DNA from: a virus
Strand: one strand, 5' to 3'
Virus record (IMG/VR): IMGVR_UViG_3300037507_002052
Location: 1 to 42,533 of that record
DNA: 42,533 nt
The notes beneath the pieces are model-generated. The model had not been told where the DNA came from. It did not search any database and saw nothing but the letters and a program-made list of their open reading frames with translations. Every line of letters starts with the position of its first letter. Position 1 is the stretch's first letter. The position numbers and the translations under genes were made by a program. This document shows, piece after piece, positions 6,003 to 41,262 of the stretch.

Positions 6003-6033
6003 GCGGCTCGCAAACAAACCAATTTCAATTCCG

Positions 6034-6049
6034 AGGGTGGCACTGAGGA
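6034..6049 (+). promoter_or_regulatory. Shared leader motif before the capsid gene
   Basis: AGGGTGGCAC at 6034-6043 is identical to the copy at 5531 and is followed by TGAGGA, the likely ribosome site of the major capsid gene whose ATG is at 6059. GGTGGCAC also occurs just before the small gene at 21452. The repetition suggests a conserved leader rather than chance. Confidence 0.4.
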
Positions 6050-6058
6050 TTTGAAGAG

Positions 6059-7210
6059 ATGCCAAATTTATTCCAGGACGTATTCAAGCCGCAGGTACTT
6101 ACCAAGGTTATCAGCGAGCGAGTCGAGGCCACTGGCTCTCTACTCAAGGAGTTTGGATTGCAACCCGGCGGAAACAACGAAACCAACATGGGGCATGGTC
6201 GCCTCGGAGCCTACCACGTTTTCAACAACACGTTGAAGACGGCGCAAGGTCGCGCTCCTGGTACGGCAGCGGGTCGAATGCAGATGCAGATCGCCTCCCG
6301 CATCCCCTTCGAGTATCCGCGAATGCACAGTTCGATTCCGCTCCTAGCCGAGCAAGTCAACAACATCGGTCGCATCGACGATCCAGCCACGCGCGACAAA
6401 GCCGGGGCGAAGATGATTGCCATGCAGACCGGATACCTCGCACAACTCGCAGCCAACTGGCGAACAGCAATGCTCGTCGGGCTGATGCGAGACTCCTTAT
6501 ACTACAAGATCGTGGGCGATTCTTGGTACTGGACCTACAGTTCGTCTGGTGCGGCGGGGCAACTCCCAACGCGCGTTCCGGCTGGCAACAAGAGCCAGTT
6601 GAACATGACGGGAGGCGGGAACATTCTCTCGACATCGTGGGCCACCACCGCGTCGGCGGACATCCCATCCAACCTCTACGCGATTCATGCAGCCTTCCAG
6701 CGCCTCACAGGCTCGGGGCTGTCGAAGATCGTCACCAAGTCGTCGATTTGGTCTCTGGTCATCAAGAACGACGCAGTGCAAGAGGCACACGGTACGGCGA
6801 ACACTCCTTACGAGATCATCAGCAAGGATAGCGGATCCGGGCCTGACGGACGACCCATTCAGAACTTTAAGGCGAGACTCTCGTTCATGCCTTGGGTCGA
6901 GTGGTGCATCAACGATGAAGGCTTGGAGATCGGCGAGCCCGGCTCCGAAACCTGGACGCCACACGTCCCCGACAACACGGCGTTCTTCATTGCGTCCGAC
7001 GCAGTGTCGAACGGATCGGACATCGAGTGCTACATCGGTGGCGAACCGATCGCCGAATACGATGGCGGTCCCAAGAGCGAGAAGTTCGGCTTGAATGCTT
7101 GGTCTCGGGAGATCGCGAACCCAACCTCGACCGAACTGTTTGTTCTCGACAACGCGCTGATGGTCCATCAAGTTCCTTCGAACTTGGCCATCGGCACTTG
7201 CGTGTTCTAG
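6059..7210 (+). CDS. Major capsid protein (lambda E-like family)
   Basis: The 383-residue product is the probable shell-forming subunit. The start (NLFQDVFKPQVLTKVISERV), the central helical part with IGRIDDPATRDKAGAKM, and the C-terminal part (FNLNAWSREIANPTSTELFVL-like segment near residues 345-370) match the length and layout of the E-type capsid family used with gpD decoration. It directly follows the decoration gene and precedes neck genes, as expected. It should assemble on the scaffold from 4349 and be held by the decoration protein. There is no obvious cleavage site or insertion. The call rests on gene order and general resemblance more than on a single diagnostic motif. Confidence 0.8.
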   Translation: MPNLFQDVFKPQVLTKVISERVEATGSLLKEFGLQPGGNNETNMGHGRLGAYHVFNNTLKTAQGRAPGTAAGRMQMQIASRIPFEYPRMHSSIPLLAEQVNNIGRIDDPATRDKAGAKMIAMQTGYLAQLAANWRTAMLVGLMRDSLYYKIVGDSWYWTYSSSGAAGQLPTRVPAGNKSQLNMTGGGNILSTSWATTASADIPSNLYAIHAAFQRLTGSGLSKIVTKSSIWSLVIKNDAVQEAHGTANTPYEIISKDSGSGPDGRPIQNFKARLSFMPWVEWCINDEGLEIGEPGSETWTPHVPDNTAFFIASDAVSNGSDIECYIGGEPIAEYDGGPKSEKFGLNAWSREIANPTSTELFVLDNALMVHQVPSNLAIGTCVF

Positions 7211-8536: not shown

Positions 8537-9086
8537 CGCTGAACCCTACCTTCTCGAAACCGTTCTCGATGCGGTGCAGACCGCCATGGGACTGACCGAT
8601 CAGCAATGCTCGATCGAGTCCGACGACGACTTTGTTCCTCAATGGGCTGGCGATCTGTACGTTACGGTCACTCCTGCATCGCTCAACCTTGGGCCCGTGC
8701 ATCAAACGTCAGGAACTACCAGAGACATGGAGTTCGGATGCCGAGTTGCGGCGTTCTTGCGGTCTCGCAGCGTCCCACGCGATTTGAGACGGACTCTCTT
8801 TTTGGATCAAGTCAAAGGCATCAACGCGCATCTCGACAAGATCATCAAGGCAGTGGACTGGAACCCCTCCATCACCGTATCAACCAACACGGCGCTGAAG
8901 GTTCAGGAACCCAACGCCAAGGGCTTCATTGGGTATCTGCGATTGGTTTCCGTCGATGCCAAGCCGAGAGGCGTCGTCTCAGACGTGTACGGAGCCGCAA
9001 ACCAAGGCGGGACTGGCGTCGATGTCTACGCGGGAATCACTCGCGGCGCGGTCTTTGGTCGATTGCGGAGGATGGAAACGCTATGA
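8529..9086 (+). CDS. Tail terminator/tail-end protein, probable
   Basis: The 185-residue product starts at GTG 8529, 8 bases inside the previous gene. It has an N-terminal helix (PYLLETVLDAVQTAMGL) followed by strands (DLYVTVTPASLNLGP) and a helix-loop region (SVPRDLRRTLFLDQVKGINAH). This is the size and secondary-structure pattern of phage tail-terminator proteins, which cap the tail tube and join it to the neck. The position, after the morphogenesis gene and before the tail-tube gene, agrees. The assignment is from context and fold pattern only. Confidence 0.55.
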   Translation: MLNAEPYLLETVLDAVQTAMGLTDQQCSIESDDDFVPQWAGDLYVTVTPASLNLGPVHQTSGTTRDMEFGCRVAAFLRSRSVPRDLRRTLFLDQVKGINAHLDKIIKAVDWNPSITVSTNTALKVQEPNAKGFIGYLRLVSVDAKPRGVVSDVYGAANQGGTGVDVYAGITRGAVFGRLRRMETL

Positions 9087-14165: not shown

Positions 14166-14386
14166 ACCCGTTCGATCTGCACGCCGAGCAAATCGTGGCG
14201 CTGCAGGAGATGCTTCCAGCGCTCCAAGCCAAGCGGAAGATTGACGAGGGGAACTACGACGCGACCAACTACCAACAAGTGTACGAACTTTGGCTCCGAG
14301 CCTACGGTGACGAAGAACTAGCACAACAAGCGAAATCCAAGGCCGTGCAACTCTACGTTGACAAGGCTTGCGGAGGAAAAATATGA
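13839..14386 (+). CDS. Tail assembly chaperone, -1 frameshift form (gpGT-like)
   Basis: If ribosomes slip back one base on A AAA AAA at 14117-14123, translation passes from frame 0 into the -1 frame and ends at TGA 14384-14386. This gives a 182-residue fusion. The -1 frame has a stop at 14099-14101, 16 bases before the slip site, is then open to 14386, and has no good start codon until GTG 14195. So slippage is the simplest way to express it. The extension is helical and charged (LHAEQIVALQEMLPALQAK; YQQVYELWLRAYGDEELAQQ), as expected for a T-domain. The stop overlaps the portal-fusion start (ATGA). Confidence 0.6.
14117..14123 (+). other. Slippery heptamer A AAA AAA (-1 frameshift site)
   Basis: The frame-0 codons are GTA AAA AAA AAT at 14115-14126. 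The nine-A run at 14117-14125 lets both tRNA-Lys re-pair one base upstream. No clear downstream stem-loop was seen by eye. Confidence 0.6.
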
Positions 14387-17300
14387 ACCAAATCAACGAC
14401 GCACTGAAACGACCGACCGCTAAGACCAAAGGCTACGCGCCGATCCAAACATGGTGGCTGCGACGGCACCAAAAGCTACCACCGCTTACGTTTCAGATCA
14501 TCGAGCAAATGCTTCTCGATGAGACGATTCAGATCGGACTAGCAGCCCGGCGGGCGATTGTTCAGGGCGTCGAGTTTGGCTATGAGGTCAACGGCCAATG
14601 GCAAGTGGGCGTGATGTGCGGGGACGAGGCCGTTGGCGCTTGGGTGATGCGTCAGATTCGCAAGCTATGGGACTGTGCCATCGAGCATCTCGCGTCCGCT
14701 CAAATCTATGGCTGGGCCGGGTGCGAAGTCATCTGGGAGCGTTCTGACGAATTTGGGACGTGGGAAATCTCCACCATCGAACAGCGACACGCAAACGATG
14801 TTCGAATGCTGCTCGATCCCGACACCGGGCGATCCTGTGGCATTCGGTTTCAACGAGTGAAGGGAGCCCCCGAAGGCTACTTGGATTTGCGGCATCCCGA
14901 GTGTCTGTTCCATTCCTACAACGCTTTTCCTGGCGAACACTACGGCACAACCGTACTGCAAGGCTCGTATCGCGCTTGGGCCGACAAGCACCTCGATGGC
15001 GGTGCTGTGGATGTTCGGCGATTGTTCATGCACAAAGACGCGTATGGTGGGGCCGACCTGCGCTACCCCGAGGGATCGACCGACATCGGGACCGTAGACA
15101 ACCCGCACGAAGTCGCCAACCGGGAACTGGCCCGCGAAATCGTCGAGCAGATTGAAGCCGGAGGGGTAACGACCACTCCAGCCCAGTACGACGACAAAGG
15201 CAACCCGATGTGGAACCTCACACGCGCCACCGTCCCGGCGAACCCGTCGCACATCCTCCAGTACCCTGGGGATCTCGATGGGGAGATGCTACGCGGGATG
15301 TTCGTTCCCGATGGCGTTCTCAAGGCCGACGACGCAGGCTCTTGGCAAGGCCGATTGATTCCCATGGGGATCCTCTACGCGAACCTCGACCCGTGGGTGC
15401 GGACGATCATCAACGACATGCGAGAGCAGCTACTAGAGCCCGGCATCATCAATAACTTCGGACGCATGATCCCGTTCGACGTGAAGCACAAGCCACTAGC
15501 CAAGCAGGCGCTCGAAGCTCAGCGTCAACCGCAAGCGATGGGCATGGATCCCGGCATGGGAGGCATGGACGGCGGAATGGGCATGGATCCCGGTATGGAT
15601 CCCATGGGAGGCATGGACGATGGTGGAGACGATCCAAATGCGGGACCAGACCCTAATGGGCCGTCCATGATGGGTGTCAAGTTCGATGCAGTGCAAGCCG
15701 TTGGAGAGGGAGTGTTGTCGGCTGCGAATGTTGTGAAAGCAGCGATGATTGCGCTCGGAGAAAGCGATCCGCAACTAATGGCTGCGATGCGAGCCCCCAA
15801 AGGATACACCAAAGACAAACCTCTAGTCATCGCCGGAAACGAATACCATGGAGGCATGTTTGTTCCTTCGGATGTTGTTGAGAAAGCTACTCCAGAACAA
15901 CGCAGAGAGCTTGAGAGCGGAGAAAAAGCGACTGACGAGGAGGAACCAAAGTCCGACCCGAAACCGTTACCTGTAAAAGCTCCCTCGCTTAGAGAGAAAA
16001 GCAAGTTCCATGACAAATGGTCGATGACATTGCAGGCCGGGCACAAGCTGACACTCAAGAGCGGTCACAAAGCCCAAATCATTAGCCAACGCAAAGGCGG
16101 TAAGCTGTTTTACACGGTTCGGCATTACGACCCATCTCGCAAGCGGACTGATTACGATCGAACCTTTACACACATTGCCGATGCGGCGGACTTTGCTTCG
16201 ATGGTATTGCACCATCACTCCAGCCAGACCGCACCAAAAGCGACAAAACCAGCGCAGACGAGCGCAGCACCCAAGCCCAAGCGAGGAAGCCTAAACGAGC
16301 GGAACTACTCATACAAGTCCACCAAGTTCTTTTCAAGCGGCGTGAAATCTAAGTTCAAGGATAACCTGGAGGCTTTGCGTACTCTCAAGTTGATCGAAGA
16401 CGAGGATCGCGAAGCAACCCCGGAGGAAAAAGAAAAGATTTCTAAGTTCGTTGGGTGGGGACAGATGCCAGGACTGTTCAACGATTACCACGAACGTCTT
16501 TATTACGATCGCGACGACCTATCCGAAGAACTTCGGAGGATCGCAACCAACTCCAAGGAACAGGACAAATGGGACAAGGAGCGGAAGGAACTCAAAACCC
16601 TGTTGGGCCAGGATGGCTACGAAGCGGCTAGAGCATCCGTAATCAACGGGCATTACACCCACCCCGAAGTTGTCAAGAAGCAATGGGAGATGGCAAAGCG
16701 GCTAGGCTTCACAGGCGGAAAAATGCTGGAGCCCGCCGTTGGTGGAGGTTACTACCTTGGGTTCATGCCGGAAGACGTAAAAAGCAATACGGCCATTACG
16801 GCGGTTGAGATGGATCCAGGATCGGCGACGATCGCGAAAGCACTCTACCCGGATGCTAATGTCGTTGTTTCTCCGTTCGAGCAATACAAGACACCAGACA
16901 ACTACTTCGATCTTGTTGCGACCAATGTTCCATTCGATGAATCGCAAATCATACGGGATTCCAAGTTAGGCAATTTGCGCCCCAACCTCCACGATTACTA
17001 TTTCCTTCGCTCAGCCCAAACTACCAAGCCGGGTGGGTTGGCAATGCTTATTACGAGCGCTGGGACGATGGACAAGATTTCCCCCGATGTTCGGAAGGCG
17101 ATCGACGCAGACATGGAGTTTGTGTCCGCCGTTCGATTCCCAGGGACCATGCACAAAGAGAATGCTGGAACCGAAGTCGTTACCGATTTAGTGATTCTTC
17201 GCAAGAAGGGAGCGGTTCCAGAGGATACTCCTGATGAAGTGCCACCGGAAGCATTGCCATCCTACGGGATTGCAAAGCGGCGCATAGTTGGTGTGCAGAA

Positions 17301-20300
17301 GTCCGTAGAGGGAATTTACGACAAACACGGAGGCGGGGGTGAATCCAATCGCGATCGAAAAAAGATTGATGAGGAAGTCAAGAAGTCTATCAGAGAAGCG
17401 AGCGATGCAGGACTCGATGAAGCAGCACATTTCACAGGAATAACGGTGGACTCACTAGGACGGCTCTACCACTGGAAAGATGGCAAGAGAGTCCCTGCGC
17501 CGCAATGGGATGACACGGTGGAAGTCCCCGATCCGCTGGGAGGAGATCCGATTCGAGTCAACCGTTACTTTGCAGAGCATCCAGAACAGATCCTCGGAAC
17601 GCTGGATCGATCTGGAACCATGTACACGGGCGGAATGAAAAACGTCCAAGCAACCGACGACTTTGAGACCCTGTTCCAAGATGCTATCGATCGTCTCCCG
17701 GAAAACATCGTTCGAACCAGCCAAGCTAGCGTTCGCGGACCATCGATACCAGACGAGCCGGAACGAATTTTGACGGCTACCAAGCACAACGAAGGAGAAA
17801 CGGTCATTCACGAAGGCGGGCTCTACACCTACGTCAACGGAGCCCTGGAGCCACATCGATTCAAGAACGAAAAGAAACAGGTCCTAATGTCCATGATCGG
17901 TATTCGCGACAAAGTTCGAGAACTCGTCGCAGCCGAGCGAGCCGGGAAAGATGGTGCCGCAATCCGGTCGGAACTCAACGCGATGTACGATTCTTTCCGG
18001 GACAAGTACGGGCTACTCCATGACCATGCGGCGGAACTCAAGGGCGACCTGGACCGCCCGATGATTATGTCTTTGGAGTCCTACGATAAGAAATCCAAGG
18101 AGTTCCGCAAAGCAGATGTGTTTGAGAAGAGCACGGCACGCCGCGCTACCAAAGTCTCCGAGGCTAAAACCATCGAGGATGCCGTTGGCGTGTCCATGCA
18201 CGATGCAGCATCAATCGATGTCGCTCGGATTTCATCTCTGCTTGGCAAGACTGTGGAAGATGTAGAACAGGAACTTACCAAGAAGGGATTGGCCTATCTA
18301 AACCCGAACGGTGACAAGTGGGAATCTCGGGACGAATACCTATCAGGAAACACCAGAGAAAAACTTGCCCAGGCAATCGAGGTTGCAAAGACAGACGATC
18401 GATACCTACCCAACGTGGAAGCATTGCGAGCAGCGCAGCCAGAAGACGTTCCGATCCAAGACATATCGGTGCGTATGGGATCCCCCTGGGTTCACCATGA
18501 AGTTTACGAAGCGTTTGTGGCAAGTGCGGTAGGTATTAACCGATATGGATCCTCGGGAATCAAATTTCGGTACAGCGACAGCGCAGCATCCTGGCTGATG
18601 GAGTTGCCATCCAGCGTAAACTCGGGTAGAGCAGCGGAGGCTTGGTCGATCTATGACTCCGAAGGCGATCTTCGCGTAAAGTTCAGTGAGATCGTCGAGG
18701 CAGCGATGACGCAACGAGCGATCAACGTCTGGGAGTACGATGGCGACACCAAATTTCTTAATCGCGAGTTGACCGACGCGGCACAGTCAAAAGTAGAAGA
18801 ACTGCAAGAGAGGTTCAACGAGTGGGCTCTGAGTCTGCCGCAAGTATCGCAGTTTCTCGAAAAGTCCTACAACGAAAAGAACAACAATATCAAAGAGCGG
18901 ACATTCGATGGGAGTCACCAAACATTCCCAGGAATGGACGAAAAGTACGCAGCCCGCCTGTATGACATCCAAAAGAATTTCGTCTGGCGCGTAGTGACGA
19001 CAGGCGTTGGGCTTGCGGCACACGAAGTCGGAACAGGTAAAACTACCAGCATGGTCGCAGCGGCGATGGAGTGTCGTCGTTTAGGGCTTGCGAAAAAACC
19101 CGCGTTTGCCGTTCTCAAATCCACCATAGAGCAATTCACGCGCGAAGCCCAAGAGCTTTACCCGGAAGCCAGGATTCTTTCCCTGAGCGACATGTTCGAC
19201 AAGGAATCGCGAAGAGAGACACTGCATCGAATTGCGACCGGCGATTATGACATGATTATCATGACGCACGAAAACCTTGAAGGGATGCGGCTGCGACCAG
19301 AGAGCGAACAAGCGTTCATCCAAGAGGAAGTTGCAGACCTAGAATCGGCCATCATCGATGCACATGCAGAGAAGGCAGCCGCAAAGGGTAAATCGGATTC
19401 CAAGATTGGCGACAAGATCGTCAAAGAATTGGAGAAACGGAAAAACAAGTTGCTTGAGCGATTGCAGAAGTCGCAAAACCCTGACGACAAAGACCCGATT
19501 TTCTTCGAGGATTCCGGGATCGATATGCTGTTTGTGGACGAGGCTCATAAGTTCAAGTCGCTCCCGGCCAATACCTCGCGAAACTACGCTGGCATCTCCA
19601 AGCAGGAAGCGAACCGAGCGATGGACATGCTATTCAAGTGCCGTTGGTTGCAAAAGAACAACAATGGACGCGGAGTGGTATTTGCGACCGGAACACCGAT
19701 TAGCAACTCCATGACCGAATTGTTCAACATGCAGCGGTATTTGCAGTACGATGAACTCAAGAAGCGAGGGCTACACAAGTTCGACGCATGGGCGGATACG
19801 TTTGGAGTTCTAACTAACGATCTTGAGTTCAAGCCGAGCGGAGAAATCGCACGCAAGCAACGCTTCGCAAAATTTGTGAATGTTCCTGAATTGAGGTTAC
19901 TAGCCTCGCAATTCATGGACGTTCAGATGGCAGACAACCTCCGCAAGCCGGACGGGTCGCCAGTAGTGAAGCGACCGCGAAAACATATACGTTTGATCGT
20001 TTCCGAAGAGACCGACCGCGTAAAGGAGATGCAGGCAGAAATCGCAGCCCGAGCCGCCGCGATTAAAGGGCAACGCAAGTTTGAGAAAGGCGAAGACAAC
20101 CCCTTGAAAATCATGGGCGATGCCAAAATGGGATCGATGGATCCACGGCTCGTCCACAAAGATGTCGAAGATGACCCACAGAGCAAGGCGAACAAAGCAC
20201 TCGCCGAAGTCATTCGAATGTATCACGAACATCCAGGCACAGTGCAGGCTGTCTTTAGCGATCTGGGAGTTCACGCAAAGGAAAACAGGATCAGCCTGTT

Positions 20301-21444
20301 CGACGACATGCGATCCAAGTTAATTGCACAAGGCATCCCCGCAAACGAAATAGCGGTGTTGTCGGATCCCGACATGAAAGACGCGGAAAAAGACCGGATA
20401 GCTACCAAGCTTCGCACGGGAGACGTTCGCATCGCGTTTGGTTCGACGCAGACATTGGGAACCGGGATGAATATCCAGGACAAGCTCAAGGCGGTCCACC
20501 ACTTGGACATACCTTACAACCCAGCGGCAATCGAGCAGCGCAACGGACGTGCATACAGGTCAGGAAATACCAACGAAGACATAGACGAGTTCCGTTACAC
20601 AACACTTGGCTCGTCCGACCCAATGTTCTGGCAGATCAACGCTCGAAAAACCAATTTCAAAGACCAGTTCATGCTTGGCAAGGCTGGGCGCGAAATGGAA
20701 GACCTGCGGTCGGACGAAATGACACCTGAACAGCTCGTTGCGATTTCGACGGGCGATCCGCGACGATTGGAACGCATCGAAGTGGACCAGCAGTACAACA
20801 AGCTCAAACGCGCCAAGAGTCGCCACGCTACCGATGTCGCTCGCATGAGGACATTAGTAGAGAAATCGGACAGCAGGCAAGAACGCTTGGTTCAAGACAT
20901 TCAGGAGCACGCCAAAGATTTGGCAAAACTGGACTCCCAAGAAGACTTCGTTTACGAAGCCCCGTATTTGCGAGGGTACAACGAAAGCCAATGGACAGCG
21001 CCTAAGCCGTGGGAAAAAACGACCTCCATTAAGGAGCGAAAGAAGGCAGAGGAATCGCTCAAGGCAGCAATCGAACACTACAACGAAGAAGGGGAAAACA
21101 AGACCTACTACTCTGGCTATGATCGGAGTAAAGGATTGCCGATTGCCAAGATTAAGGGATTCGAAGTGAAGATCCTCGATGACGGTCGCGTTTCCGTTCA
21201 GGGTCCAAGCGGAAGAGTCCAGTTTGCGCAGCCTTCGTTGCAGTCCATCGAAGCGGCAATAAAGAAAGTCAAAAAGCGACACGAAGAGGCGGTGGAAGCC
21301 TTGAAACAACATGAATCGGAAATTGAGCACTTTAAGCGGGAAGTGGAGAAACCGTTCCAGTTGCAGGGTAAACTAGATTCGGTACGCAAGAGGCTGATCG
21401 AACTGCGTGAAGCCCTTGGCGAAACCGTAAGACCCGAAGAATAG
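14383..21444 (+). CDS. Portal protein fused to DarB-like adenine methyltransferase and Snf2-type helicase
   Basis: The 2353-residue product starts at ATG 14383, with GGAGGA at 14372-14377; a TTG at 14368 would add five residues. Residues 1-380 read as a DUF935/Mu gp29-like portal (LTFQIIEQMLLDETIQIG, QIYGWAGCEVIWE, QGSYRAWADKH). A Met/Gly/Asp linker spans 385-430, and YHGGMFVP near 487-494 is typical of polyvalent phage proteins. Residues 655-955 are an N6-adenine methyltransferase with FVGWGQMPGLF (689), SAM motif LEPAVGGG (782) and catalytic NVPF (848-851, the NPPY equivalent). Residues 1530-2150 are a helicase with Walker A AHEVGTGKT (Lys1553), DEAH (1719), ATGTPISNS and QRNGRAYRSG (2052). 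The C-terminus is coiled coil. No other portal exists in the window. The methyltransferase-helicase pair resembles P1 DarB, an anti-restriction virion protein. The fusion is continuous and in frame. Confidence 0.85.
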   Translation: MNQINDALKRPTAKTKGYAPIQTWWLRRHQKLPPLTFQIIEQMLLDETIQIGLAARRAIVQGVEFGYEVNGQWQVGVMCGDEAVGAWVMRQIRKLWDCAIEHLASAQIYGWAGCEVIWERSDEFGTWEISTIEQRHANDVRMLLDPDTGRSCGIRFQRVKGAPEGYLDLRHPECLFHSYNAFPGEHYGTTVLQGSYRAWADKHLDGGAVDVRRLFMHKDAYGGADLRYPEGSTDIGTVDNPHEVANRELAREIVEQIEAGGVTTTPAQYDDKGNPMWNLTRATVPANPSHILQYPGDLDGEMLRGMFVPDGVLKADDAGSWQGRLIPMGILYANLDPWVRTIINDMREQLLEPGIINNFGRMIPFDVKHKPLAKQALEAQRQPQAMGMDPGMGGMDGGMGMDPGMDPMGGMDDGGDDPNAGPDPNGPSMMGVKFDAVQAVGEGVLSAANVVKAAMIALGESDPQLMAAMRAPKGYTKDKPLVIAGNEYHGGMFVPSDVVEKATPEQRRELESGEKATDEEEPKSDPKPLPVKAPSLREKSKFHDKWSMTLQAGHKLTLKSGHKAQIISQRKGGKLFYTVRHYDPSRKRTDYDRTFTHIADAADFASMVLHHHSSQTAPKATKPAQTSAAPKPKRGSLNERNYSYKSTKFFSSGVKSKFKDNLEALRTLKLIEDEDREATPEEKEKISKFVGWGQMPGLFNDYHERLYYDRDDLSEELRRIATNSKEQDKWDKERKELKTLLGQDGYEAARASVINGHYTHPEVVKKQWEMAKRLGFTGGKMLEPAVGGGYYLGFMPEDVKSNTAITAVEMDPGSATIAKALYPDANVVVSPFEQYKTPDNYFDLVATNVPFDESQIIRDSKLGNLRPNLHDYYFLRSAQTTKPGGLAMLITSAGTMDKISPDVRKAIDADMEFVSAVRFPGTMHKENAGTEVVTDLVILRKKGAVPEDTPDEVPPEALPSYGIAKRRIVGVQKSVEGIYDKHGGGGESNRDRKKIDEEVKKSIREASDAGLDEAAHFTGITVDSLGRLYHWKDGKRVPAPQWDDTVEVPDPLGGDPIRVNRYFAEHPEQILGTLDRSGTMYTGGMKNVQATDDFETLFQDAIDRLPENIVRTSQASVRGPSIPDEPERILTATKHNEGETVIHEGGLYTYVNGALEPHRFKNEKKQVLMSMIGIRDKVRELVAAERAGKDGAAIRSELNAMYDSFRDKYGLLHDHAAELKGDLDRPMIMSLESYDKKSKEFRKADVFEKSTARRATKVSEAKTIEDAVGVSMHDAASIDVARISSLLGKTVEDVEQELTKKGLAYLNPNGDKWESRDEYLSGNTREKLAQAIEVAKTDDRYLPNVEALRAAQPEDVPIQDISVRMGSPWVHHEVYEAFVASAVGINRYGSSGIKFRYSDSAASWLMELPSSVNSGRAAEAWSIYDSEGDLRVKFSEIVEAAMTQRAINVWEYDGDTKFLNRELTDAAQSKVEELQERFNEWALSLPQVSQFLEKSYNEKNNNIKERTFDGSHQTFPGMDEKYAARLYDIQKNFVWRVVTTGVGLAAHEVGTGKTTSMVAAAMECRRLGLAKKPAFAVLKSTIEQFTREAQELYPEARILSLSDMFDKESRRETLHRIATGDYDMIIMTHENLEGMRLRPESEQAFIQEEVADLESAIIDAHAEKAAAKGKSDSKIGDKIVKELEKRKNKLLERLQKSQNPDDKDPIFFEDSGIDMLFVDEAHKFKSLPANTSRNYAGISKQEANRAMDMLFKCRWLQKNNNGRGVVFATGTPISNSMTELFNMQRYLQYDELKKRGLHKFDAWADTFGVLTNDLEFKPSGEIARKQRFAKFVNVPELRLLASQFMDVQMADNLRKPDGSPVVKRPRKHIRLIVSEETDRVKEMQAEIAARAAAIKGQRKFEKGEDNPLKIMGDAKMGSMDPRLVHKDVEDDPQSKANKALAEVIRMYHEHPGTVQAVFSDLGVHAKENRISLFDDMRSKLIAQGIPANEIAVLSDPDMKDAEKDRIATKLRTGDVRIAFGSTQTLGTGMNIQDKLKAVHHLDIPYNPAAIEQRNGRAYRSGNTNEDIDEFRYTTLGSSDPMFWQINARKTNFKDQFMLGKAGREMEDLRSDEMTPEQLVAISTGDPRRLERIEVDQQYNKLKRAKSRHATDVARMRTLVEKSDSRQERLVQDIQEHAKDLAKLDSQEDFVYEAPYLRGYNESQWTAPKPWEKTTSIKERKKAEESLKAAIEHYNEEGENKTYYSGYDRSKGLPIAKIKGFEVKILDDGRVSVQGPSGRVQFAQPSLQSIEAAIKKVKKRHEEAVEALKQHESEIEHFKREVEKPFQLQGKLDSVRKRLIELREALGETVRPEE

Positions 21445-26034: not shown

Positions 26035-28196
26035 CGCGAATTGGTCTCAATCTGTCGAAAGACATATACGACGTTTCGCCGTTGGAGTACGACGAAGAAG
26101 CAAAAACCAATCGCCAGCACCTTCGAGTTCCTATATCTGCTCGGGGCATTCGGTTCGGTACACTCAACCTACCGCGACCACACAATCGCCTCCCCATGGC
26201 GCATGGGTATTATCGTGGCAACAATCTTCCTCAAGTGTACGCTACTGACAGCATCTCGCCTGCATTTGAATCTCCAGAGCCATGGGAGTTACCCGGTCGG
26301 ACGCCGGACGGTCTTTGCGGTAACATCAGATCCGGTGTCTCCAATAGGGCTTTGGATGCGCACCGATGGGATACGCAGACGGTATCGTGGAAACCGGCAC
26401 CTTACCAACAACCCCTGGCCGTGTCGGGGCTTTATTTCGATTATCTGAAACCAGACGGGACCGCCCAAACTTTTGTCAACCAATTTCAATCGACGTCCGC
26501 AGCAGTCGTCCGAGATGACCTCATTGGCGTGGCGACACTTGGAGTTTTTCATAACAATATCCAAGGGTTCAACCTCAACAACTTTTTTTCGCCAAACATC
26601 CAACGAGACAAACCATGGTCCGCGCTGATAAACGTCACCGTGGCAAATTTTTCGCCGGGTTCACAATTTGCAGAAGTTTTACGCAGGACTGGCCGGTATT
26701 GGATACATCGCGTCTTCGATCACTTTGGACCGTGGGTGAACGAGACTGAAACTCGGTGGTATCAGTTTTTCGTGGAGCGCGAAGCCGAACCTAGTTATGT
26801 TCGCAATCGATGGGCTTGGGTGGACAGCCTTGGCGGGGTTAAAGAACAGCGGATGATGGCTCGGCGAAAACCGTGTCGGTTCTCTACGTTTGTGGTGCAA
26901 ACACAGCGCAGGCAGTGGCTTGACAACGGCGCAGGAGCCGCAATGGCGATTCCAAACGGTGCATTCGCAGTTCAACATCGAACGAGCAGCACAGACAGTT
27001 TTGGTGGCGACACAAACACATCACTACCGCTCGTAAATTGGGTGGCTGGCGAGTACCCAGGGCATCCATCCGTCAACCTAACCGCGTTTGAAACGGCGGT
27101 GGACGCAGAAGATGCCACTACAATCGCAAACATGGTCGAGAACTGGCCTGGGGTTTGGTACACGCTCCCCACGCAGTCGCATTACAAGTGGCACCGTTTT
27201 CGATGGTTGCTCAACGCTCCAACCTTTGGTGCTGCCAAACCACGCATGGTTGCCAGTTCTCACAGAATCACTTCCTACCACCCCAATGCTTGGGGCAACG
27301 AAAGAATGCTTCCTCCTTGCCCTGGTTGCGGACCAGGAGACAACCCCATTATTCACAATACCTCTGTGTCCGACGATCACGAAGTCACTTACACGCCCTC
27401 GGGCTCGGTGCAATGCGACGAGCGAGAGCTTATCACCGACACGCACTTCGGGGATTTCGTTCGGCTAAACGCTACCTTCACCTCGCAAGTAGAAAACTAT
27501 ACTTATCATCCACTGTCCGACGTTCCTTACATCAACACCACCGAGGTTCGCGATCGCTACAGAAAACGAACCACAACACAAACGGTCAGTCCGCGAATAA
27601 CGATTACAAGCATTGCGGCGACGGATCCGCTCTGGCAATGGAAAGCGTATCAGTTCCGAGACCCCAGTTGGAGTTTTGGGTATCAAACAGTGCAGCCGCA
27701 AGTCAGGTTGTCGCGAGTGTACGGCCCGCTAGGACAGGCAGACGTCGAGAAAGCTTTTCCCTACAAGCATGTCGCTTGGGGGGGTCCAGGTGCTTGCCTC
27801 GTCCCGCAATTCGAGAACGCCGTTGGCGTCGAAGGTTTCGATCCGCACATCAAGCCAATTGTAATTCCGAATCCAATCACTATCACTCTCACCAACCCAG
27901 CGACTTATGCGTTCGTTCCATTGACTATATCGTATTCGGCTTTCCTGAACCCCGCAAATGAGAGATCCGATTGGTTTATATCGCAGCGAGTCGTAGCGTC
28001 CGATGGGTTCTTTGCAGCCAACCTTCGATTGGAATTTGCGCAACAGTTTGGTGGTGGCGCTTTCGGCCTTTCTGCCGAGCATCATGCCGTCTGGTCGCCA
28101 GGGTCGTTCAGTTTCACCATCCGGGTTTACGCCAACAACACCTACAGCGATCCCGTGGCCGTCACGGTGAACGTCTTGCCACCACCACCCCCCTAA
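26031..28196 (+). CDS. Very large putative tail/baseplate protein with C-terminal Ig-like region
   Basis: The 721-residue product overlaps the previous stop by 4 bases. It is rich in Trp, Tyr, Asn and Pro. The C-terminal ~100 residues are Ig-like beta (NPITITLTNPATYAFVPLTI, then strands, closing VAVTVNVLPPPP), as in many phage adhesion proteins that bind cell surfaces. The middle contains CPGCG, a possible metal-binding Cys pair, near residue 430. Its end runs into the integrase, whose stop overlaps on the other strand by 4 bases, so transcription is convergent. A receptor-binding or host-contact role is inferred. Confidence 0.5.
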   Translation: MTRIGLNLSKDIYDVSPLEYDEEAKTNRQHLRVPISARGIRFGTLNLPRPHNRLPMAHGYYRGNNLPQVYATDSISPAFESPEPWELPGRTPDGLCGNIRSGVSNRALDAHRWDTQTVSWKPAPYQQPLAVSGLYFDYLKPDGTAQTFVNQFQSTSAAVVRDDLIGVATLGVFHNNIQGFNLNNFFSPNIQRDKPWSALINVTVANFSPGSQFAEVLRRTGRYWIHRVFDHFGPWVNETETRWYQFFVEREAEPSYVRNRWAWVDSLGGVKEQRMMARRKPCRFSTFVVQTQRRQWLDNGAGAAMAIPNGAFAVQHRTSSTDSFGGDTNTSLPLVNWVAGEYPGHPSVNLTAFETAVDAEDATTIANMVENWPGVWYTLPTQSHYKWHRFRWLLNAPTFGAAKPRMVASSHRITSYHPNAWGNERMLPPCPGCGPGDNPIIHNTSVSDDHEVTYTPSGSVQCDERELITDTHFGDFVRLNATFTSQVENYTYHPLSDVPYINTTEVRDRYRKRTTTQTVSPRITITSIAATDPLWQWKAYQFRDPSWSFGYQTVQPQVRLSRVYGPLGQADVEKAFPYKHVAWGGPGACLVPQFENAVGVEGFDPHIKPIVIPNPITITLTNPATYAFVPLTISYSAFLNPANERSDWFISQRVVASDGFFAANLRLEFAQQFGGGAFGLSAEHHAVWSPGSFSFTIRVYANNTYSDPVAVTVNVLPPPPP

Positions 28197-29125
28197 GCCG
28201 CAGGCGGTTCAGGTGGCAACCTACCCGACTTGATCGACCTTGAGTCGATGTAGTGCCTCCTGACCGTCCGCGTGCCCGAAACATGCCCTAGCGACTCCGC
28301 AGCCGCAGATTCGCCTTCCGTTGCGTAGACCTGGGTGGCGTGGCTCTTGCGAAGCACGCCGAGCCCCTGGCCACGCATGCGCCGGAATCCGAGTTTTGCG
28401 GCGGTGGAAAACAGGATCAACTCAATCCTTCGCACCCCCGATTTGCTCAGTGGGAAAACCTTCTCCCGAGGTGGTCGCTCAATATCCGCCAACAGTGCGA
28501 TTGCCGCTGGTGACAGCCGAGCCGTGTGCGCCCGTTTGGTCTTGTGCTGGGTTAGCGTGACCGTCCCGTCGTAGAAATCCACATCGGCCCATCGCAGCAG
28601 CCGCAAATCCGAAGGTCTTAACCCGGTGTCGTATCCAACACGAACCCAGGCCGCAAGAAACGCCCCTGTCGCAATTCCGCATTGCAAGCGACCCGGAACC
28701 CGAGCACACGCATCGATCAGGATCTTGATCTGCGACAGAGACCACGATCGAACGACCCGCTGCTCCTGCTTCGGTCGTTTAAGTTTTCTTGGGTTGAAAG
28801 GCTGGCACAGATCGCGAGCCACGGCGTAATGCCAAACAACTGTCAAGGCGACCCGGTAATTGATGATGGTCGTCGCCGACTTGCCAGAGTCCTTCAAGCT
28901 GGACAAAAACGCGTTGACGTTTTCCTCGGACATGTCAGTTACCTCAGGAATTTTCCCAAGGAATGATCCGAGCTTTTGGCAAGCGCGGTGGTATTGGCCG
29001 ATCGTGGCGGATTCGAGGTCGCGTTCCGTCGCGATCTTTTGGACGAGATCGCTGAGGTTCATGGCTGGGCGATTGGGCTGAGTGCTGGCGTTGAAGATAG
29101 GTAGGTCGTTTCCAATGAAACGCAA
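28193..29125 (-). CDS. Tyrosine integrase
   Basis: The product is 310 residues from TTG 29125, or about 289 from the internal ATG at 29062. The N-terminal core-binding domain (about 25-105) is followed by a catalytic domain: Arg170 in TGLRPSDLRLL, Lys195 in QHKTKRAH, Arg259 in VLRKSHAT, His281 in SLGHVSGT and nucleophile Tyr292 in RRHYID. The first His of the usual HxxR box is Gly256, a variation seen in other integrases. It catalyses recombination between attP and a host attB, and its probable target is the tRNA-Ser fragment 22 bases upstream of its start. It is the only - strand gene here and ends against the structural block. Confidence 0.92.
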   Translation of the reverse strand: MRFIGNDLPIFNASTQPNRPAMNLSDLVQKIATERDLESATIGQYHRACQKLGSFLGKIPEVTDMSEENVNAFLSSLKDSGKSATTIINYRVALTVVWHYAVARDLCQPFNPRKLKRPKQEQRVVRSWSLSQIKILIDACARVPGRLQCGIATGAFLAAWVRVGYDTGLRPSDLRLLRWADVDFYDGTVTLTQHKTKRAHTARLSPAAIALLADIERPPREKVFPLSKSGVRRIELILFSTAAKLGFRRMRGQGLGVLRKSHATQVYATEGESAAAESLGHVSGTRTVRRHYIDSRSIKSGRLPPEPPAA

Positions 29126-38307: not shown

Positions 38308-38601
38308 ATGCTGGACAAAGAGACGGTTTGGTGTGTTGCGTGCGATGCGTTTGCCCGCGCTGTGGGATCGCCAGACATCTTCGAGCACGAAGTGCGTTGC
38401 GACGAACGGGTCAAAGTGCTCCAGCCGTGGCAAATCGAGTTGATTGTCAAGCTGTGTCTGATGCTCTTCCAAATCTGGATGGCGACCGGCGTGAATGACC
38501 CTCACGCTATCAAGGATCCGAAGTTCTCGGATGAGTTTGAGTTCGAGTTTTCCGAGGCACAGGTGTACGGGCTCGATCATCCCAAAGAGGAGGATGAGTA
38601 A
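38308..38601 (+). CDS. Small hypothetical protein
   Basis: The 97-residue product starts at ATG 38308 after AAGGGG. It is helical with a hydrophobic patch (WQIELIVKLCLMLFQIWMATG), possibly membrane-contacting, and a Glu-rich tail (DEFEFEFSEAQVYGLDHPKE). It opens the likely lysis/late block. No family is recognised. Confidence 0.5.
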   Translation: MLDKETVWCVACDAFARAVGSPDIFEHEVRCDERVKVLQPWQIELIVKLCLMLFQIWMATGVNDPHAIKDPKFSDEFEFEFSEAQVYGLDHPKEEDE

Positions 38602-38897
38602 TGCTTACGGTGTTGACCTCGGTCTTTGGTGTTCTGGTTTTCGTCGGCGGGTTGGTTTGGACGGTGCTTCAATGGACCGCGAAGCCAGCAAGCAGGCAGA
38701 TCATTCGCACGTTGGACCAACTGACTCCGGGAGACCTGGAAAAGTATCTAAGCCCCATGGAGACGCCGAGTCGCTTGGAGGCGTTGCAGCATGTCGATGC
38801 CTTGATGGTCTACTTTGAAAAGACGAAGAACGCTACGGGGCAATCCGCAATCACATCGGTGGTTGCGGCGGTGTTCTCGCAAGGTGACAGCAAATGA
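38601..38897 (+). CDS. Small membrane protein, possible holin-like
   Basis: The 98-residue product has one N-terminal membrane segment (residues 3-24: TVLTSVFGVLVFVGGLVW) and a helical cytoplasmic part (TLDQLTPGDLEKYLSPME, ALQHVDALMVYFEKTK). Size and topology suit a holin or holin-like accessory, but no family can be claimed. It overlaps the previous stop by one base (TAATG) and the next gene by 4 bases. Confidence 0.5.
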   Translation: MLTVLTSVFGVLVFVGGLVWTVLQWTAKPASRQIIRTLDQLTPGDLEKYLSPMETPSRLEALQHVDALMVYFEKTKNATGQSAITSVVAAVFSQGDSK

Positions 38898-39298
38898 TTG
38901 GCCGATCGCCATGGCCCGCCGTTCTCATGTTGATCGGTGGAGCCCTCATTGCGATCGGTCCATGGGTCGGCAGGCTAATCCCCTTGCCTGTCGGCCCGTT
39001 TGAGCCAGTGGAAGGCGCTTGGGTGGTGGTCGTCGAAGAGACCGCAGCGCGGAATCCAGCGGTGGCGCGGGTGTTGGCAGACGGGGAATTTTGGCTGGGC
39101 TTGGAATCGCGGAATACAAAGTGGCGGTTTTACGACATTGACAGCGCAGACGCCAAGCCGTTTCGAGTGGAGGCCGAGAAGGTCGGCATCCCGGCAGTTT
39201 TGATTGTCGGTCCCAAGGGAGAGATCCTCAAGTCGGCCCCCCTCCCGGCAACAACAGCCGGGATTGGGGCTTTCGTCATGGAGGCGACCGGCCAATGA
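38894..39298 (+). CDS. Membrane-anchored thioredoxin-fold protein without CxxC
   Basis: The 134-residue product has an N-terminal membrane segment or uncleaved signal (residues 8-28: PAVLMLIGGALIAIGPWVG) and a thioredoxin-like fold: WVVVVEETAARN, a helix, WRFYDIDSADAKPF, then a cis-Pro loop in VGIPAVLIVGPKG (Pro100). The usual CxxC is absent, so it is probably not redox-active by itself. It overlaps the protease gene by 4 bases. Confidence 0.6.
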   Translation: MIGRSPWPAVLMLIGGALIAIGPWVGRLIPLPVGPFEPVEGAWVVVVEETAARNPAVARVLADGEFWLGLESRNTKWRFYDIDSADAKPFRVEAEKVGIPAVLIVGPKGEILKSAPLPATTAGIGAFVMEATGQ

Positions 39299-40131
39299 GT
39301 CTCCCATATATCGAGATCGATGGGTTGGAGTTTCCGTTAGGGACGCTGGTTCCAGACCATCGTCCAGAGTCGTTCCCAGCCTATGCGGACTCGGGAATGC
39401 CGATGTTCACGAAGGAGCAGAAGATCGAGATCCTCAAGGATCCTCGACGGATGGCTGCAAGATTGTGGTTTCCGGCCTCCCAATGGATCAAGAGCCAGGG
39501 GCAGCGGGGAAGCTGCAACGGCTACGCGGGAGCCAAGGCGCTAGAGCGAGCGCGAGTGAAACGCGGTCTTCGGCATATACCGCTCTCAGGTGAAGGGCTA
39601 TACGCACAAATCAACGGCGGGCGGGATGTTGGCTCGATGCTCGATGACGGCATGAAAGCGATTACCGAACGCGGTGTGCCTCCTGAGTCGATGGTGCCCC
39701 ATCAAGAGTACCTGTGGAAAAACATTTCCCAGGAAGCCCGCGAAGCTATGGCGCGGTTTAAGGCGATCGAGTGCTACCGGGTGGACACTGCCGACGAACT
39801 GGAAAGCGGACTAGCAGCCGGGTTCGTGGGTGTGGTGGCGGTCCATGCGACGAACGCATTTACCGCCCTCGATGCCGAAGGCCGAGTCTATCCGACCGAT
39901 GGGCCCGGAAATCACGCTGTAGGCGTAGACGACTTGCGATGGTCGGGCACTGAGTTCGAGTTCGATATGTTCAACTCCTGGGGTCTTCGATACGGGCAAC
40001 AGGGGCGCGGGTGGATCTCCTGGTCGCGGCATCTCCGATCCCCGTCGCGGCACCATGCGTTTTATTTGGTGCGATCGACGAGCGACGATCCCCAAGGGGA
40101 CAACCCTCCCGTTGCGGAGGCATCGGCATGA
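39295..40131 (+). CDS. Papain-like (C1-type) cysteine protease
   Basis: The 278-residue product has papain-family active-site features: an oxyanion Gln (Q68 or Q70) before the nucleophile Cys74 in GQRGSCNGYAGAKAL, His207 in GPGNHAVGVDDL and Asn227 in FNSWG. No signal peptide is evident, but the N-terminal ~60 residues could be a pro-region. Papain proteases in phage are uncommon. It lies between two thioredoxin-fold membrane proteins and small membrane proteins, where endolysin and holin genes often occur. It may thus degrade surface protein for release or entry. It might also process virion proteins. Confidence 0.8.
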   Translation: MSLPYIEIDGLEFPLGTLVPDHRPESFPAYADSGMPMFTKEQKIEILKDPRRMAARLWFPASQWIKSQGQRGSCNGYAGAKALERARVKRGLRHIPLSGEGLYAQINGGRDVGSMLDDGMKAITERGVPPESMVPHQEYLWKNISQEAREAMARFKAIECYRVDTADELESGLAAGFVGVVAVHATNAFTALDAEGRVYPTDGPGNHAVGVDDLRWSGTEFEFDMFNSWGLRYGQQGRGWISWSRHLRSPSRHHAFYLVRSTSDDPQGDNPPVAEASA

Positions 40132-40610
40132 TTGCCAAGTTCCTGTCCGCGATCCAAACACTCGTACTGGTTGCCGTTCTCATCGCAGGCGCGTTTGTGA
40201 CGTACCAGGGCTACCGAGTCTATCGGGCCGTCTTCGACCGATTGGAGCAAGTGGACGCTTGGATCAAGCGATTCAGCGATCAAGAACGTCAATGGTTTCG
40301 TCTTGGGTCTCGTATTGAGAAGCTCGAAGTCGAGCGTGATCTAGCGAAACAAAAGAAGGAGAAGATCGAAGCAGCAAAATTGCCCATGAAGCCGACCGTC
40401 ATCATGTACTCGCTGGACGGATGCGGACCGTGCGAAACGTGGTGGCGAGAACAGGCCGAGCCGTGGCGGTTGGCCGGATGGGCAGTGAGACGCGAAACAA
40501 GCACAACGTCGGAGCCGACGCCCTATTGGGACGTTTGGGACGGCGAAAAGTGGTTCAGGGTGGCTGGCAAGTTAAACCTCGAATCCTATCGGAGTGCTGG
40601 CGGAAAATGA
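40128..40610 (+). CDS. Membrane-anchored thioredoxin with CGPC
   Basis: The 160-residue product starts at ATG 40128 (ATGA overlap with the protease). Residues 6-25 are a membrane segment (LSAIQTLVLVAVLIAGAFVT). Residues 35-85 are coiled-coil, and residues 88-160 carry a thioredoxin motif MYSLDGCGPCETWW with Cys99 and Cys102. The classical CGPC suggests it can reduce or exchange disulfides. Next to a Cys-dependent protease, it might keep that enzyme active or time its action. Confidence 0.75.
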   Translation: MIAKFLSAIQTLVLVAVLIAGAFVTYQGYRVYRAVFDRLEQVDAWIKRFSDQERQWFRLGSRIEKLEVERDLAKQKKEKIEAAKLPMKPTVIMYSLDGCGPCETWWREQAEPWRLAGWAVRRETSTTSEPTPYWDVWDGEKWFRVAGKLNLESYRSAGGK

Positions 40611-40897
40611 CAGAATTGACTCAATGGGTTGCAAACAACGGGTTGGCCGTAGCGATCGTCGTTGCGGGCGGTATCGGGCTCTGGAAGACGGCTGGTTGGC
40701 TGGCGGTCAACGTCATTACGCCTCTCAAGGATGCGTTTGTCGATCACTTGCACGGCATCAGTGCTTTTATGACCGCGACAAGCGAGAGTTTGGAAAGCAC
40801 TGCTAAGTCCATCGAGGTAATCAGCGAGCAGATGAAGGGAATCCGCGACGACGTGGACCAGATGTCACGATCCATGGAGGAACGCAAAGTCCCATGA
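40607..40897 (+). CDS. Small membrane protein with helical tail, holin candidate
   Basis: The 96-residue product starts at ATG 40607, overlapping the previous stop by 4 bases. It has one or two membrane segments (residues 11-39: NGLAVAIVVAGGIGLWKTAG, then WLAVNVITPL) and a helical, charged tail (SLESTAKSIEVISEQMKGIR). Size and topology are holin-like, but similar small membrane proteins can be accessory tail or spanin parts. Confidence 0.5.
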   Translation: MTELTQWVANNGLAVAIVVAGGIGLWKTAGWLAVNVITPLKDAFVDHLHGISAFMTATSESLESTAKSIEVISEQMKGIRDDVDQMSRSMEERKVP

Positions 40898-41262
40898 TCG
40901 GCTCCAAGGCGTCAAAGGTGGCAATCTACGTCAAGCAGGGTTCGGACTGGGCCGCAGAGTTTCAGATCAAGGACGCGACTGGCGCAGTGGTAGCTCTGAC
41001 GGGATCCTCGTTCAGCGGGCAAATCCGAAAGACCAAAAGCACCACCGTAGTCGCAGCTTCGTTCACGTTTGTCGTGAACACCACAACGAACACTGTGCAG
41101 TATTCGCTGGCTCGGGCCGTCTCCAGTGCCATGCAAGCAGGAGAGACGGAAGTTGATCCAGCCAGCCAGTACGTTTACGACATTGAATGGACCAAGCCAA
41201 GTGGCATGGTGGATCGCATCCAGGAGGGTGCGTTGGTTTTGTCTCGGGAAGTTACTCGATAA
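40894..41262 (+). CDS. Putative virion accessory protein, beta-rich
   Basis: The 122-residue product starts at ATG 40894, 4 bases inside the previous gene. It reads as a beta-rich domain: IYVKQGSDWAAEFQIKDATG, SFSGQIRKTKSTTVVAAS, then VYDIEWTKPSGMVDRIQEGA. It is like small tail adaptor (BppU-N-type) proteins preceding fibres, and the fibre gene follows. The role is inferred from context. Confidence 0.5.
   Translation: MIGSKASKVAIYVKQGSDWAAEFQIKDATGAVVALTGSSFSGQIRKTKSTTVVAASFTFVVNTTTNTVQYSLARAVSSAMQAGETEVDPASQYVYDIEWTKPSGMVDRIQEGALVLSREVTR

Follow-up and report, generated by a model that had tools for sequence, protein, structure and literature searches.

A papain-family protease and a cysteine-free thioredoxin-fold partner in a candidate phage lysis cassette

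Host lysis by tailed phages is usually described as the degradation of peptidoglycan. The stretch of DNA studied here (the window), which is the whole 42,533-base linear IMG/VR virus record IMGVR_UViG_3300037507_002052, raises the question of whether a cysteine protease could take the place of the endolysin. A sequence-only reading had picked out a papain-like protease with two membrane-anchored thioredoxin-fold proteins, set between two small holin-like proteins, and proposed an alternative lysis or envelope-breaching set in which a reducing partner switches the protease on. The envelope-breaching part of this proposal gains from the co-conservation of the genes, from the lack of a recognisable endolysin and from a cassette swap in a relative, but redox control does not belong to its core. 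On balance, we lean modestly towards the reading that positions 38308-40897 form a host-lysis (envelope-breaching) cassette with a C1A protease in place of an endolysin.

Gene order and the protease

The five open reading frames first recognised, spanning 38601-40897, exist as described and are chained by 4-base (ATGA) overlaps. Such overlaps join 11 of the 39 neighbouring gene pairs of the window, and being common in this genome they were rejected as a sign of special coupling. A sixth member, g0 (38308-38601; this and all other cassette genes lie on the + strand), had been missed; it encodes 97 residues with one hydrophobic or amphipathic segment and adjoins the protease region in all close relatives. 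Downstream follow g1 (38601-38897; 98 residues, N-terminal transmembrane (TM) segment), g2 (38894-39298; a thioredoxin-fold protein), g3 (39295-40131; the protease), g4 (40128-40610; a putative thioredoxin-like protein, whose start is an internal ATG inside a longer GTG frame) and g5 (40607-40897; 96 residues, a helical TM/coiled-coil protein). The cassette's downstream boundary is g6 (40894-41262, +), encoding an LtfC-like/phrog_1084 tail-fibre-associated protein. In comparison with the relative G003, all cassette genes are under purifying selection (pN 0.14-0.33, pS 0.66-0.89). The description of the g1 and g5 products as holin-like stands in so far as both are small with one hydrophobic segment each, although neither matches a holin family; g1 is holin-like by size and topology only, and g5 has a putatively holin-like or i-spanin-like topology.

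The g3 product is a C1A papain-family cysteine protease of the xylellain type (278 residues), as identified by Pfam, by profile comparison with the PDB and by alignment. It scores 21.1 bits against Peptidase_C1 (PF00112; cut-off 20.7), its homologue in L005 scores 35.6 bits, and the family profile retrieves xylellain (3ois, E 1.2e-22) and cathepsin K (1e-15) from the PDB. The catalytic residues first proposed, Cys74, His207 and Asn227, are all present. Across 17 divergent relatives, Gln68, Cys74, His207, Ser228 and Trp229 are invariant and position 227 is Asn or Gln; the invariance of C74, H207 and Q68 in these sequences points to an active enzyme. The protein has no signal peptide, no TM segment and no N-terminal SAR segment. 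Its only other cysteine, C160, is kept in 14 of the 17 relatives and, by hand alignment to papain, would lie away from the active site.

Other parts of the window, at 28193-29125 (- strand) and elsewhere, encode an integrase, RecE/RecT, a Zeta-toxin-like domain and a CsrA-family regulator. A 2358-aa frame at 14368-21444 combines a Mu-type portal domain (PF06074) with a methyltransferase-like region and an SNF2/helicase region; the last matches the DarB-like antirestriction family phrog_10089 very strongly, giving a portal-DarB fusion.

A constant pair with changing neighbours

The g2 product had been described as a TM-anchored thioredoxin fold lacking CxxC, and AlphaFold2 and Foldseek confirm the fold. 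The model has pLDDT >90 over residues ~40-130, its Foldseek matches are thioredoxins, and it shows the beta-alpha-beta-alpha-beta-beta-alpha order of that fold. The CxxC motif for redox activity is absent, and the protein, which is exported or membrane-anchored, contains no cysteine at all.

Our last scan of viral contigs for the protease returned 34 loci, which we group into ~18 divergent lineages; to these the 595-kb phage LR756511 is added. Of 21 records with the protease, 18, LR756511 among them, have a single match to the g2-family profile, and it lies directly before the protease gene; in the remaining three, the TM protein upstream of the protease aligns to the g2 family. Since this holds across the records, the constant unit of these cassettes, judged by profile and alignment, is an exported, redox-dead thioredoxin-fold protein plus the protease, with g2 near-obligate. 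Phages that carry the pair range from about 30 to 595 kb in size. In every case the neighbours of the protease are exported or TM proteins, and the position of the module varies between the neighbourhood of tail fibres and that of the terminase.

Within the window's own lineage, a check for co-conservation found all five genes and g0 kept in four further members at 27-100% identity. The six genes are 98-100% identical in L002/G001, 48-81% in L003/L004 and 27-64% in L070, where g0 keeps its position; the cassette is also kept in L007. A g0 profile matches the equivalent gene in L059, L008, L012 and L020 (hhalign E 4e-8) and is too variable for scanning the whole collection.

Several observations around these loci stand apart from the main comparison. 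A phage lipid desaturase gene (PF10520, TMEM189/CarF type) lies in or near the cassette in two distant lineages (L070:2515-3048 and L026:5256-5840). Downstream of the C1 protease of L030, an exported protein (6010-6702) resembles, on visual inspection, a trypsin-type serine protease (GMSGG motif), so that this cassette would hold two proteases. In the 595-kb phage there is another, divergent C1 protease (L075; LR756511.1, 449310-449897) close to a gene resembling CTP synthase by eye. Two unrelated phages have phrog_1128 near C1 proteases (L017:6296-6823 and L073:2224-2730); this family is named enoyl-CoA hydratase-like, but by eye the L017 sequence resembles a permuted NlpC/P60 enzyme and the PHROG name may be wrong.

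L026 (9354-9635), L030 (6702-6929) and L033 (6218-6475) encode, two genes after the protease, small proteins with lipobox-like starts, possibly outer-membrane spanin-like lipoproteins. L002, after 9968 (the reversed end of G001), and L005, at 8810-9061, encode a small exported protein whose mature part has two cysteines early on and whose tail is basic and aromatic (RVFQRLRCR / RGFFKRIFCR); G001 has this protein, but the corresponding place in the window does not.

The case for lysis and its alternatives

The strongest single result for the lysis reading comes from L059, whose terminase and head genes are 100% identical to those of the window and which carries a different cassette in the same place. 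There the order is a holin-like TM protein, a g0-like protein, a TM protein, a divergent C1 protease and an Rz-spanin-like TM/coiled-coil protein, with no thioredoxin partner. The L059 protease shows 29% identity by BLAST and is recognised by the family profile (E 1.2e-9) and by hhalign (E 1.1e-7). From the composition of this cassette it follows that the protease, g0 and small membrane proteins survive the swap, in lysis-cassette order. Points against the lysis reading are that the L059 matches to a PHROG holin (E 2.9e-4) and to an Rz-like spanin (E 8e-4) are weak, and that Pfam and PHROG searches gave no holin family match for g0, g1 or g5. It also counts against this reading that C1A enzymes normally cut proteins, whereas in most bacteria protein is not what holds the wall together. 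Two candidate relationships were rejected: g5 is not a homologue of the Rz-like protein of L059, being similar in topology only, which likewise weighs against the lysis reading, and the record G026 is no mate for L059, as its fragment does not cover the cassette region.

A Pfam scan and family searches support the earlier observation that the window encodes no muramidase or amidase. A normal endolysin elsewhere in the genome, which the sequence-only reading had held to be fatal to its proposal, was not recognised in the two relatives that close the genome map, G001 (a 98% relative of 44.6 kb) and G003, both of which span the tail-fibre-to-terminase gap absent from the window. Pfam scans of the window, G003 and G014 revealed no peptidoglycan hydrolase, and none was among the best 25 of 33 Pfam families in G004 or the best 25 of 26 in G017; G004, G014 and G017 carry structural genes different from those of the window. 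With positive controls detected, there were zero matches to Amidase_2 and Phage_lysozyme in 21 records, to CHAP (PF05257) and Peptidase_M23 in 27, and to NlpC/P60 (PF00877) and SLT in 20. Every IMG/VR record used is linear and possibly incomplete, a novel lysin could escape PHROG and Pfam, and there are large virion proteins without annotation; on these terms, the absence of a conventional lysin from the protease-bearing phages is suggestive rather than conclusive.

If the cassette lyses the host, small membrane proteins (g1 and/or g0 and g5) would permeabilise the inner membrane at a programmed time, and the signal-less g3 would pass into the envelope and cut its structural proteins or else protein links within the wall. 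Envelope protein is the probable target, since proteins are what C1A enzymes cleave and the searches turned up no enzyme that would cut glycans or stem peptides. With a tether outside the inner membrane, g2 could act as a non-catalytic docking partner, adaptor or inhibitor of g3. In some clades, including that of the window, g4 might add thiol chemistry, for instance to open disulfide-linked wall proteins or to keep the catalytic cysteine of g3 reduced. The data show the genes, their folds, the conserved active site, the near-obligate pairing of g2 with the protease, the absence of any recognised peptidoglycan hydrolase and the L059 swap; we infer the timing of lysis, holin action, the substrate, these roles of g2 and g4, and the host.

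The same genes could serve the envelope without lysing the cell, the protease and the membrane-anchored thioredoxin-fold proteins acting in superinfection exclusion, in the removal of surface or defence proteins, or in envelope remodelling. Several partners are exported, the desaturase genes co-localised in L070 and L026 suggest membrane modification, and the window phage, with its integrase, is probably temperate. However, the protease lacks an export signal, late tail and terminase genes surround the cassette, the protease of the L059 swap is flanked by holin-like and spanin-like proteins, and no conventional lysin was found elsewhere. We therefore regard a non-lytic module as unlikely, while giving it real weight.

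A stricter version of the lysis idea, in which lysis is gated by a CGPC thioredoxin that reduces and so switches on the protease, turns on g4. Of the earlier description of this protein, the CGPC motif, the TM helix and the overlap with the protease gene hold; the thioredoxin-like fold of its C-terminal domain, which follows the TM segment and a long helix, is only moderately supported, by a weaker model. Both cysteines are invariant in the family alignment and CGPC recurs in L070, but matches to thioredoxin families are weak (PHROG thioredoxin domain, E 0.0021; best Foldseek match, E 4.9e-3; no Pfam match) and homologues are limited to the window clade of five close lineages. A second clade (L020-L024/L034) has an independent Pfam thioredoxin with CGPC (E 3.6e-8) downstream of the protease, and this recurrence, like the retention of C160, speaks for gating. 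In other lineages the same place holds a CPTC protein (L019), multi-cysteine exported proteins instead of a CxxC thioredoxin (L005, L025, L026, L028, L033, L037) or only a TM/coiled-coil protein (L008, L009, L012).

The proposed redox switch is thus not supported as a core feature: a CxxC thioredoxin stands beside the protease only in some clades and is lacking there in L005, L059, L008, L009, L012 and most of the distant clades, the distant marine ones included, and the constant partner, g2, is incapable of redox chemistry. C160 lies, by the hand alignment, away from the active site. The topology of g4 is ambiguous, with positive charges after the TM segment that allow a cytosolic (C-in) domain, and the cytosol is already reducing. 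We consider redox gating doubtful, and g4 an accessory to the protease cassette.

In L005 and the window clade the cassette abuts tail-fibre genes, as might be expected of a virion-associated protease that acts at entry, at the tail tip or by digesting surface-layer protein; yet partners anchored in a membrane are unlike virion components, L025, L028, L030, L032 and L033 have the module beside terminase genes, and no fusion to tail proteins was seen, which makes such a role very unlikely. A cytosolic processing protease that serves maturation or host takeover and lies next to membrane genes by chance would suit the missing signal peptide and the general protease activity of C1A enzymes, but it leaves the pairing with an exported thioredoxin-fold gene in ~18 lineages unexplained and can hardly be credited.

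Hosts and known systems

We suspect Planctomycetota as hosts because of the exported, cysteine-rich style of the proteins together with published planctomycete wall biology: cysteine-rich YTV wall proteins have been reported in Planctomycetes (PMC8567305), and Planctopirus can do without most of its peptidoglycan genes (PMC10632474). Phage-ZRK32 of a planctomycete is reported to be released chronically without lysis, and the words 'protease' and 'thioredoxin' are absent from the main text of that report. Two scans of genome contigs gave no cellular relatives of the protease, and the C1 matches in plasmids are distant only (Leptospira, Persicobacter). The planctomycete cytochrome family PF07635 gave no match, but its controls were also silent and the result is uninformative on the host.

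It is possible, though less likely than not, that proteolytic lysis is widespread and crosses phage lineages: a holin would deliver the C1A protease, a thioredoxin-fold protein without redox activity would be its dedicated partner, some clades would add a protein that reduces thiols, and the hosts would be those whose envelopes rely on cysteine-rich proteins instead of peptidoglycan, such as Planctomycetota. A genuine papain-family protease in the endolysin slot of unrelated phages in which no peptidoglycan hydrolase is recognised would make protein the load-bearing target in their hosts, and if the host link holds, the finding would matter to the long-running argument about Planctomycetes walls. 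The protease and the redox-dead thioredoxin fold form a testable partner pair. Xylellain-type C1A genes in phages were known already, their acquisition by Myoviridae and Siphoviridae having been reported in a survey (PMC10380794). We consider the cassette context and the near-obligate redox-dead partner to be new; a limited literature search found no earlier report of this cassette.

P1 Lyz, invoked earlier as a precedent for disulfide control, is a weak parallel. In both systems a cysteine would be central to lysis control, but Lyz belongs to the T4-lysozyme family and is of the SAR endolysin type (PMC3556154), whereas g3 belongs to the C1 family and shows neither a SAR segment nor a muramidase fold nor a disulfide lock. 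Xylellain of Xylella fastidiosa (3ois) and g3 are both short bacterial C1A proteases with an N-terminal extension and a QGxxGSC / H / NSW active site; unlike xylellain, g3 stands in the middle of a phage cassette, next to an exported thioredoxin-fold partner that is redox-dead. The annotated endolysin of the isolate Alicyclobacillus phage MMB025 (XXN61434.1) has a xylellain-type C1 domain fused to a peptidoglycan-binding domain and offers, by analogy, a domain-fusion precedent for a C1 domain in lysis, although it has 753 residues with further domains in one protein, a Gram-positive host and ~26% identity to the L020 protease. Against the canonical lysis cassette of holin, endolysin and spanins, the difference lies in the enzyme, a C1A protease rather than a muramidase, amidase, CHAP or NlpC/P60 enzyme, and in the extra thioredoxin-fold proteins; the likeness lies in the position of the module, in the small TM proteins around one soluble, signal-less enzyme and, in the L059 version, in holin-like and Rz-like neighbours.
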